Positions 36,989-42,678 of a stretch of DNA of 42,678 nucleotides are shown piece by piece. This DNA is from Caldisericia bacterium (lineage in GTDB: Bacteria > Caldisericota > Caldisericia > UBA6126), in NCBI GenBank assembly GCA_023146045.1, contig JAGLCW010000245.1, forward strand, positions 1-42,678. Reading direction: 5' to 3'. The position numbers and the translations under genes were made by a program. Each line of letters opens with the position of its first letter. Position 1 is the stretch's first letter. The notes below the pieces were generated by a model that was not told the origin of the DNA, ran no database searches, and saw nothing but the letters and a program-made list of their open reading frames with translations.

Positions 36989-38722
36989 TTACGTTCTATG
37001 CTTTTTTATTCCAATGGTTACTACAAAAGTATATTCACCTGATATATCATCTATTCTAGCAAATTTTGTTTCAAAATAACCGTCTTGCATCAGCATCAAT
37101 TGTTTGCAAATTTTTAGACCTAATCCATTATTTTTATCTCTTTCTAAACAGGAATGATCAGTTTTCTTTATACAATCTTTAATGTTTACATAATTTTCAA
37201 CAATTAACTCAATATGAGTTTTAGTTTCATTTGTTTTTATGGATATCGGTTCCTTTGAAGTACCATGTCTTGTGGAATTAAGAATAATATTTCCAACAAC
37301 ACGATTTAAATACATTTTGCTACAGAGAATATCTCCTAAGTAATTATCAATATTCAAAGTAATTATTTTAAAACCAGCATTATTTGCGACTACATTACAT
37401 TCGTCTAAGTATTGTTTAAACAATTCATTCCAATGGGTTGATATTAATACTGCCTTTGGTTCATTTTTCAATACTAAACTGTAGCTTAAAATATTTTCAA
37501 TCATTGACCTTAAATCTTCAGATTTTCTCATTGCCCCGTTAACATATTCTTGCATTTCTTCTAGTTTTTCCCATTTCTTTTCAGAGACCAAGGTTAAATA
37601 ACCCATAATAGTTGTTACTGGGGTGAGTAAATCGTGTGAAAGGTGAGTTATTAAGATTCTTCTTGAAATGTCTAATTCTTTCTCTTTATTAAAACCATCT
37701 CTTAGAGCTTTAGTTAGCATATTTACATTACTAGCAAGACTTGTTAACTCATTATTACCAATAATTCTTATTTTAATGTCTGTATTCCCTTGAGAAATCT
37801 TCACAATTCCTTTTTCGATATTTTTTAAGTATCTACTCATTGGTTTTGTCATTAACACAAAAGATGTCAAAAAAGCCATTATTGCAAATATCAACGAGAG
37901 CATGTATAAGAACTCATAGTCGCCCTTAAAACAATATGACACAAAAAAAGTTTGACCGTCTGAAAAACTAATTGGGAAGTCAACTACATCAAAGTGTGGT
38001 TTTCTTCTAAGGGTTGTTTCGATTACATCTTTAGATATATATTTTAAACTAGTTGCTTCTCCAGAGTAAAGAGAATAATCATTCTTTAAGTAATTCTTGC
38101 TAATGTTAGTCATCACAATATTTTCTTTAGTAGAGTTCTTTACAATGAACTCTTGACTGTAAAACTTCATCAAATCGAACAAATCATCGTATTCTCTAAG
38201 TGTAAAATCCAACACAAAAGGAAACAGGAATTCTTCTCGGTTTACACTCTCTTCGAAATCTTTCTTTATATCATTAAATTTGGTTTCTTTATCGTAGACG
38301 GTTACAATAAATTCAAGCTCTTCACCAAATTTGATATACGGATAAAGTGTGTAATCAACTAGATCTTTTTTTGTTATATCCATGTGAAATACTTTTTGTA
38401 AAAACAACAAATCATCTTTAACAACTATCTCATCGTCTTCTTTTACCAGACCATGACCAGATAAATCATTTAAAACACTTTTTAAATAACTGCTTTGGCT
38501 TAGCATCCCTTTTTTATATAAATCTATTCTTCCATTTCTTTTTAAAGCAATAAACATTTCCTCTTTTGATTCAATAACTTTGTAATCTTTAGGCATTGTA
38601 TGGTAGTTTTCAAGTATATTTGAATGATAACCTACTAATGTAGAACTTACAAATAAAACTAACCCAATAAAAAGGCTACTTATGAAAATTAATAGTATTT
38701 TTAGATTTAATTTGATCTTCAA
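36989..38722 (-). CDS. Sensor histidine kinase of a PhoPR-like two-component system
   Basis: Membrane kinase of 577 residues: first helix (residues about 8-30), a large extracytoplasmic sensor region of about 240 residues (30-268) with no domain I recognise, second helix (about 270-291), HAMP (about 292-345), HisKA with the phospho-acceptor His363 in SHDLLTPVT, and HATPase_c with N box GNIILNSTRHG and G2 box NNGLGLKI. The start is a TTG with GAGGG 10 bases upstream; no ATG is available nearby and the in-frame TAA 18 bases upstream bars a longer form. It is 177 bases downstream of its response regulator gene, an unusually long gap that holds its own promoter-operator and a short leader frame. 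Confidence 0.92.
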   Translation of the reverse strand: MKIKLNLKILLIFISSLFIGLVLFVSSTLVGYHSNILENYHTMPKDYKVIESKEEMFIALKRNGRIDLYKKGMLSQSSYLKSVLNDLSGHGLVKEDDEIVVKDDLLFLQKVFHMDITKKDLVDYTLYPYIKFGEELEFIVTVYDKETKFNDIKKDFEESVNREEFLFPFVLDFTLREYDDLFDLMKFYSQEFIVKNSTKENIVMTNISKNYLKNDYSLYSGEATSLKYISKDVIETTLRRKPHFDVVDFPISFSDGQTFFVSYCFKGDYEFLYMLSLIFAIMAFLTSFVLMTKPMSRYLKNIEKGIVKISQGNTDIKIRIIGNNELTSLASNVNMLTKALRDGFNKEKELDISRRILITHLSHDLLTPVTTIMGYLTLVSEKKWEKLEEMQEYVNGAMRKSEDLRSMIENILSYSLVLKNEPKAVLISTHWNELFKQYLDECNVVANNAGFKIITLNIDNYLGDILCSKMYLNRVVGNIILNSTRHGTSKEPISIKTNETKTHIELIVENYVNIKDCIKKTDHSCLERDKNNGLGLKICKQLMLMQDGYFETKFARIDDISGEYTFVVTIGIKKHRT

Positions 38723-38737
38723 TCCTTTACTTCCCTC

Positions 38738-38770
38738 TTAAATATTTCCGATACCGGATTTCGAAGCCAT
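38738..38770 (-). CDS. Possible 10-residue leader peptide before the kinase gene
   Basis: Short frame MASKSGIGNI with a near-perfect ribosome site (GGAGGT, 8 bases from the ATG), ending 15 bases before the kinase TTG start and in the same frame. A GTG eight codons upstream would make it 18 residues. It lies between the putative kinase promoter (-10 at 38808-38813) and the kinase start, so it could couple or attenuate kinase translation. A GGAGGT is much rarer than chance ATGs in AT-rich DNA, but the peptide may simply be untranslated. Confidence 0.3.
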   Translation of the reverse strand: MASKSGIGNI

Positions 38771-38807: not shown

Positions 38808-38866
38808 ATTTTAAAGAATTACAAGGAGTTTTAAATATGGTAAATCTTAACAAAATCTTAACATTT
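38808..38866 (-). promoter_or_regulatory. Response-regulator operator and -10 element before the kinase gene
   Basis: Bases 38842-38866 hold two TTAACA hexamers (plus strand, 38847-38852 and 38858-38863) separated by 5 bases, an 11-bp period like the sites of OmpR/PhoB/PhoP-family regulators. The same 25 bases occur again at 39664-39688. On the minus strand a -10 hexamer TAAAAT (38808-38813) begins exactly 28 bases after the operator, as at the second copy, and no good -35 is present, as expected for an activator-dependent promoter. Confidence 0.65.
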
Positions 38867-38899
38867 TTATTTTATAGTGCTTATATAGTGTGTATTATT

Positions 38900-39598
38900 T
38901 TACATTTTTAGTCTTTTTTCTTCAAAAGTATATCCTTTTCCCCAAACATTTCTCAAAAATATTGGGTCTTTTGGATATTTTTCTATTTTCAGTCTTAGCC
39001 TGTTGATGTATACCATTACTTTATTTGAAAATTTGCAGTCATAAGGCTCGTTCCATACTTTTTCATACAGTTCTTTTAAAGAAAGAACTTTATTCATATT
39101 TGACGCTAAGTAGTAAAGCATATCATACTCGCTTCTCGTCAATTGAATAACTTTATTATCAACTACTATTCTTTTGTTTACATGGTTGAAAACAAAGTAT
39201 TCTGTTTTAAATACTCTATTAGCTTTTTTGTCAAACGTGTTTCGATATCTTCTAATTGATGCATAAACTCTTGATGTAAGTGCCGGAAGAGTAAAAGGTT
39301 TTGTTATATAGTCGTCTGCTCCAGAAGTTAGACCATTAATCATGTCTTCTTCTTCAGTTTTTGCTGTTAGAAATATTATCGGCATTTCATATAGTTTTCG
39401 TATTCTTCTACAGGTTTCTAAACCACCTATCCCAGGCATTGCTACGTCAAGTAGTATCAAATGAAATGTGTCATCAACTAACATTAAAGCCTCTTCACCA
39501 TCATAAGCAATCTTTACGATAAATCCTTCGGATTCAAGGTATATTTTGATTATTCTAGCTAATTCTCTTTCGTCATCGACGATTAGTATTTTATTCAT
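38900..39598 (-). CDS. OmpR/PhoP-family response regulator
   Basis: DNA-binding response regulator of about 232 residues. The receiver domain has the acidic pair in IVDDE (residues 7-9), phospho-acceptor Asp51 in LLDVAMPG, Thr in FLTAK and the invariant Lys100 in TKPF. The C-terminal winged helix (about 135-228) contains LTRSEYDMLYYLA and the recognition-helix region KVMVYINRLRLKIE, then GKGYTF. The start is the ATG at 39598 with GAGGA 5-6 bases upstream; an in-frame ATG 17 codons earlier has no ribosome site and would add an atypical tail. Probably binds the duplicated TTAACA operators flanking this gene. The regulated process is not known; the TTAACA-N5-TTAACA site matches the B. subtilis PhoP box layout. 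Confidence 0.95.
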   Translation of the reverse strand: MNKILIVDDERELARIIKIYLESEGFIVKIAYDGEEALMLVDDTFHLILLDVAMPGIGGLETCRRIRKLYEMPIIFLTAKTEEEDMINGLTSGADDYITKPFTLPALTSRVYASIRRYRNTFDKKANRVFKTEYFVFNHVNKRIVVDNKVIQLTRSEYDMLYYLASNMNKVLSLKELYEKVWNEPYDCKFSNKVMVYINRLRLKIEKYPKDPIFLRNVWGKGYTFEEKRLKM

Positions 39599-39629
39599 AT
39601 TATTCCTCAATAATTTGCATACATTTAAA

Positions 39630-39688
39630 ATTATACCTATATATTTCATAAAACAAGGGGGTCAAATCTTAACAAAATCTTAACATTT
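39630..39688 (-). promoter_or_regulatory. Response-regulator operator and -10 element before the regulator gene
   Basis: Second copy of the 25-base sequence (39664-39688) with paired TTAACA hexamers at an 11-bp period. A minus-strand TATAAT (39630-39635) begins exactly 28 bases downstream of it, about 30 bases before the response regulator ATG. The identical geometry at the kinase gene supports a functional, probably autoregulatory, activator site. Confidence 0.7.
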
Positions 39689-39768
39689 GTTATTTTTGAA
39701 ATATATATTTATTCAATATTTTTCATATTCTTAGATTTTGTTTGAACAATGGAAAATTATGCAAAAAT

Positions 39769-42375: not shown

Positions 42376-42678
42376 TTACTTAACAAATATGAGAGCAACT
42401 CTTTCTAAAACTTCATCCAGTAAATCCGAATTAATGCTTTCAACGAAAGTTGCCTTTCTTGCTTTTAAATCCATTGATTTTAGATGTTCACAAAGTATAA
42501 AACCGGTTGTAGAGGTGTGATCAGCTAGAGATATATGCATAGGAAAACCATTATTTGTATTTGTAATTGGGCAAACTACAGCAAGGTTGGTATATCGGTG
42601 ATAGGATTCATTACTGATAATAAGAGCCGGGCGTTTTCCATTTTGCTCATGACCCTTTTGTGGATAAAAATCAAGGTT
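42376..42678 (-). CDS. MazF/PemK-family endoribonuclease toxin (5' end cut by window)
   Basis: The minus-strand frame is open from the right edge to a TAA at 42376-42378 and encodes the last 100 residues of a MazF-like toxin. Matching features are DFYPQKGHEQNGKRPALIIS (loop with the catalytic Arg in GKRPAL), the VVCPITN strand (Thr of the active site), then GFILCEHLKSMDLKARKA and the C-terminal helix LLDEVLERVALIFVK. The missing part is only about 8-15 residues (usually ending in G-D-I/V-x-W-L/V). Such toxins cleave mRNA at short sequences and are held inactive by an antitoxin (MazE or similar), usually encoded just upstream, here outside the window. Genes of this family also occur singly, so antitoxin pairing is inference. 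Confidence 0.88.
   Translation of the reverse strand, partial: NLDFYPQKGHEQNGKRPALIISNESYHRYTNLAVVCPITNTNNGFPMHISLADHTSTTGFILCEHLKSMDLKARKATFVESINSDLLDEVLERVALIFVK

Follow-up and report, generated by a model that had tools for sequence, protein, structure and literature searches.

A repeated 25-bp element ahead of both genes of a VanRS-like two-component system in a Caldisericia bacterium and its probable role in autoregulation

In the genome of a Caldisericia bacterium, an OmpR/PhoB-family response regulator gene is flanked by two identical stretches of 25 bases, and the question arises whether these are operators, which protein would bind them, and to what effect. The analysis covered a stretch of 42,678 nucleotides (hereafter the window; GC 32%), and the features of the locus are compiled in Table 1. 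The 25-mer AAATCTTAACAAAATCTTAACATTT occurs at both places without a single difference, the match stopping at either end, and the pair is the only exact repeat of at least 17 bases in the window. The regulator and kinase genes are both encoded on the minus strand (below, the coding strand), and in this reading direction each 25-mer contains TGTTAAGATTT twice without mismatch. Apart from these two, the window has no perfect 11-bp tandem, and TTAACA-N5-TTAACA with zero mismatches is likewise confined to the two copies, in full agreement with a preliminary description of identical repeats flanking the regulator gene, each with two TTAACA hexamers at an 11-bp period. Extra weak half-sites (a third or fourth) were not found in the 11-bp register of the window operators. 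Since about 3e-5 exact repeats of 25 bases are expected in the window by composition, and the perfect 11-bp tandems are the sole ones in it, a chance origin of the pair is excluded.

Table 1. Coordinates of the features at the regulator–kinase locus (positions in the window; promoter elements and operators are candidates)
Feature	Position	Strand	Remarks
Operator R	39664..39688	−	coding strand AAATGTTAAGATTTTGTTAAGATTT; two perfect 11-bp half-sites (TGTTAAGATTT x2); identical to operator K
Operator R, predicted place	about −62 to −41 of the regulator promoter
−10 TATAAT, regulator promoter	39630..39635	−	28 bp after operator R
OmpR/PhoB-family response regulator gene	38903..39598	−	232 aa; ATG at 39598; stop codon 38900-38902
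Operator K	38842..38866	−	regulator–kinase gap; identical 25-mer, two 11-bp half-sites
−35-like TTTAAA (weak), kinase promoter	38830..38835	−	16 bp before TAAAAT; same offset in the congener
−10 TAAAAT, kinase promoter	38808..38813	−	28 bp past operator K; counterpart in the congener TACAAT (+28)
Membrane sensor histidine kinase gene	36992..38722	−	577 aa; TTG start; stop codon 36989-36991

The regulator possesses a receiver domain (Response_reg, PF00072, 103.5 bits) and a C-terminal winged helix (Trans_reg_C, PF00486, 73.6 bits), both over the Pfam cut-off, and thus qualifies as a member of the OmpR/PhoB family. In the kinase, HisKA (PF00512) exceeds its Pfam cut-off, and HAMP and HATPase_c stay slightly under theirs. 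The best NCBIfam matches are of the VanR type for the regulator (205.7 bits, cut-off 350) and of the VanS type for the kinase (90.6 bits, cut-off 400); as both lie far under the curated cut-offs, the two-component system is, judged by its sequence, VanRS-like and not a VanR/VanS member. Between the end of the regulator gene at 38900 and the TTG of the kinase gene at 38722 there is an intergenic gap of 177 bases, as described before.

The exact distance of 28 bp between each 25-mer and a −10, reported earlier, was reproduced: on the minus strand, TATAAT and TAAAAT each start exactly 28 bases past the repeat, and for the window pair alone this equal spacing has p ~0.005 in dinucleotide shuffles. 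When five operators were aligned, two from the window and three from a congener (G001), the hexamers at offset +28 read TATAAT, TAAAAT, TATGCG, TACAAT and AATAAT, matching the −10 consensus in at least 5/6 positions in 4/5 cases. The total score at this offset was 24, compared with 17 for the second-best offset, and 0/5000 dinucleotide shuffles reached 24. With transcription assumed to start 7 bp after the −10, as in all promoter coordinates given here, the operator spans about −62 to −41 and adjoins the weak −35 position. TTTAAA occupies the −35 position in both kinase promoters (window and congener) and is a 4/6 match, 16 bp ahead of TAAAAT in the window; the earlier remark that there is no good −35 is thus adequate for the regulator promoter, but not for the kinase promoter.

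The congener, the one available for this comparison, encodes a related pair (regulator 49%, kinase 35% identical) in a syntenic setting, with genes for a small membrane protein, TyrRS, and urocanate hydratase shared with the window. Its regulator operator TCTTAAGAAAATCTTAAGATTT (L041, about 1406-1427) has the same place and core as operator R, and its kinase operator TCTTAAGAATTTCTTAAGATTT (L041, about 2206-2227) is located in the regulator–kinase gap, in the same place as operator K. The conserved core on the coding strand reads nTTAAGA-N4-nTTAAGATTT, i.e., two 11-bp half-sites ending near −41. At the G001 regulator gene, the hexamer found at +28, TATGCG, makes a poor −10, and the start codon is uncertain. 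Because this layout recurs in the sister species, where the sequence is a matching variant, autoregulation appears well supported at the sequence level. The congener also bears on the suggestion that the 25-mers are AT-rich repeats that arose by chance or duplication and have no regulatory role, to which the AT-richness of the region lends some colour; the repeat is kept at both positions in G001 with a concerted base change, which already contradicts it, and together with the minute number of exact repeats expected and the fixed spacing to the −10 leaves this suggestion a practically negligible probability. Outside the genus, no such operator was found at regulators 38-41% identical (Lachnospiraceae, other phylum class; L031-L047), three of which (L043, L046, L047) were read in one orientation, such that the scanned 'upstream' side may be the other end of the gene.

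A third G001 operator, identical to its kinase operator, is found ahead of a DUF6531/RHS-repeat (YD-repeat) gene. The RHS/YD-repeat paralogues of G001 (L061:7928-8420; L116:1-900) have a common leader and different upstream regions, one carrying the operator, the other lacking it and having a promoter of the TTGACA type, so that promoters appear to have been exchanged. In the genome of the window, the RHS homologue on contig C111 showed no operator in the stretch examined.

Taken together, it is highly probable that the 25-mers are operators of the system's own OmpR/PhoB-family regulator, a phosphorylated dimer of which would activate transcription of the regulator gene and also, through a promoter within the operon, that of the kinase gene. 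The phosphorylated regulator would bind each 25-mer as a single dimer covering both 11-bp half-sites, which are arranged head to tail and would have their downstream edge at approximately −41, just upstream of the weak −35. In this position it may recruit RNA polymerase to promoters in which the −10 is recognisable and the −35 poor. A terminator-like site was not found on the coding strand between the regulator and kinase genes, so that the kinase gene would be reachable from both promoters: transcription from promoter 1 would cover the regulator gene and run on into the kinase gene, and promoter 2, inside the operon, would drive the kinase gene separately. If both promoters are regulator-activated, activation of the kinase would raise both proteins, which amounts to positive feedback. 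From the operator position alone, we infer activation rather than repression. The mechanism put forward in the preliminary description, i.e., regulator-activated, autoregulated promoters and a promoter of its own for the kinase gene, is probably right, the congener layout supporting it and activation being the probable sign. Such an arrangement is of the ordinary autoregulatory kind that is already known; what the present analysis adds, by sequence alone, is the assignment of an operator, its orientation, and a promoter geometry for one such system in a lineage that has been little studied, as well as a correction of the motif.

It has to be considered that the same regulator binds but represses (negative feedback), or that operator R mainly silences a divergent promoter directed toward the exonuclease VII gene (xseA), with the operator TTAACA as its −35. 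Indeed, the plus strand offers TTAACA (39680), a spacing of 18 bp, and TATATT, a 10/12 sigma-70-like match toward xseA, and regulator binding could occlude this promoter (39680-39709). Both variants seem unlikely, however, as the sites are located upstream of the −35 and do not cover the −10/−35 elements, the upstream neighbour in the congener is not xseA, the conserved −10 at +28 faces in the direction of regulator and kinase, and a promoter scan of the region exceeded the background only moderately (28 found, 18.8 expected, both strands). Toward the end of the window, a PemK/MazF-type toxin gene (PF02452, 82.5 bits; 42376-42678, minus strand) is truncated at the end of the contig.

With up to 3 mismatches allowed, the 22-mer has two occurrences in the 1.95 Mb assembly, both at this locus, and the combination of operator and −10 at +28 (up to 2 mismatches) has four in 54 phylum genomes, two in the window and two in G001, with 3/4 at this two-component system; the G001 regulator operator falls outside the combined pattern owing to its weak −10. 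As a search motif for a regulon, the use proposed for it at first, the element is therefore weak: the 22-mer occurs nowhere else in the genome, and TGTTAA-N5-TGTTAA is not enriched (30 matches versus 51 in the reversed-pattern control). A wider regulon built on loose motifs was rejected, as genome-wide matches with 1-3 mismatches were no commoner than those of the reversed-pattern control. The assembly is 94% complete, hence a regulon target may be missing. In a distant phylum genome, TGTTAAGATTCTGTTAAGATTTG (L063:3325-3347) is 1 mismatch from the window operator and may be due to chance; it is located between genes for a MEMO-like protein and an htrA-like protease, in reverse orientation relative to htrA, and was rejected as evidence because the reversed-pattern control gave 5 matches in 61 genomes.

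The confinement to one locus is also relevant to the idea that another OmpR-family regulator, e.g., a PhoP- or WalR-like one, controls the system from outside. TTAACA-N5-TTAACA can be taken for a PhoP-type box, and on the coding strand TGTTAA-N5-TGTTAA fits the WalR pattern TGTWAH-N5-TGTWAH. WalR-type sites are listed in PMC5405149. A PhoP or WalR regulon, on the other hand, would place such sites before other genes, whereas in this genome they occur at this system alone; furthermore, the TTAACA form is lost in the congener, and the half-site base varies together with the recognition helix of the system's own regulator. Control from outside is accordingly regarded as very unlikely, and the encoded regulator as the probable binding protein.

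Along these lines, the initial assignment to TTAACA and the B. subtilis PhoP box fails: TTAACA is the reverse complement of the window variant, the congener operators read TTAAGA on that strand, and TTAACA-like repeats are not kept across the orthologues. By its sequence, the core nTTAAGA-N4-nTTAAGATTT appears closer to the half-sites of CiaR, PmrA, SaeR, and WalR than to the PhoP box. The CiaR operator of streptococci, NTTAAG-N5-TTTAAG, shares two TTAAG half-sites with an 11-bp period ahead of positively regulated promoters, its −10 following 10 bp after the last repeat (PMC3091779), and a CiaR-like regulator of B. anthracis binds such a site ahead of its own gene (PMC4938410). The first half and N5 fit, but the second half-site begins with G (window) or C (congener) instead of T, and the distance from the last TTAAG to the −10 is 32 bp, two turns further than the 10 bp of CiaR. 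The PmrA/BasR box, CTTAAG-N5-XTTAAT (PMC3973317), resembles the CTTAAG half-sites of G001, whose regulator shares with BasR an Asn at the PhoB Arg201 position; the window, in contrast, has GTTAAG with Arg and a regulator 30% identical, and the second half-site ends in G, not T, being TTAAG in 5/5 operators. The SaeR site of S. aureus, GTTAAN6GTTAA, found in the autoinduced sae promoter (PMC5083920), is matched exactly in half-site letters and spacing by both window operators, the congener having CTTAA, which is a likeness of sites and not membership. In sae, a single promoter, located before saePQRS, is autoinduced and another, serving saeRS, is constitutive; an operator ahead of the kinase gene alone is not described (PMC5083920). 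In enterococci, VanR binds upstream of the −35, with a poor −35 and autoregulation by VanR and VanRB, and in lying ahead of a poor −35 the present operators are positioned much as described for VanRG, and unlike those of CiaR (PMC4405338). The 12-bp VanR motif (T/C)CGTANGAAA(T/A)T (PMC4405338) does not occur in the operators, and the scores of regulator and kinase, although VanR and VanS head their NCBIfam matches, are far under the curated cut-offs as given above.

All half-sites of the window (4/4) read GTTAAG, and all those of G001 (6/6) CTTAAG. At the position corresponding to PhoB Arg201, the window regulator has Arg, and both the G001 regulator and E. coli BasR (PmrA) have Asn. PhoB Arg201 has been described as bonding a guanine. 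CTTAAG is also the type of half-site read by PmrA (PMC3973317). This comparison of one species pair suggests that operator and regulator changed in concert, and the match of one recognition-helix residue to one operator base is a proposed pairing that can be tested. As a tentative extension, this may be a genus-specific system of a little-studied small phylum, its regulon having contracted to the system's own genes and, in one species, a surface RHS gene. Regulator and kinase would each have an autoregulated promoter of their own with identical spacing, and the operator would have drifted with one recognition-helix residue (Arg-GTTAAG, Asn-CTTAAG) at every half-site; if true, it would provide a small natural example of regulator–operator co-evolution.

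The leader of the kinase gene harbours a 10-codon ORF, MASKSGIGNI (38738-38770, minus strand), which has a strong RBS (GGAGG), is in the kinase frame, and is closed by TAA ahead of the TTG start. A counterpart was not seen in G001, a stable fold was not found for the leader (z = 0.5), and the window gave no Rfam matches. A structure prediction for the extracellular domain of the kinase, made from two sequences, was unsuccessful (mean pLDDT 34.5). The ATP-binding domain apparently does without the usual G1-box Asp-x-Gly, with VENYVN in the window and VKNAAS in the congener (L062:4267-6171); the GLGL motif is retained.
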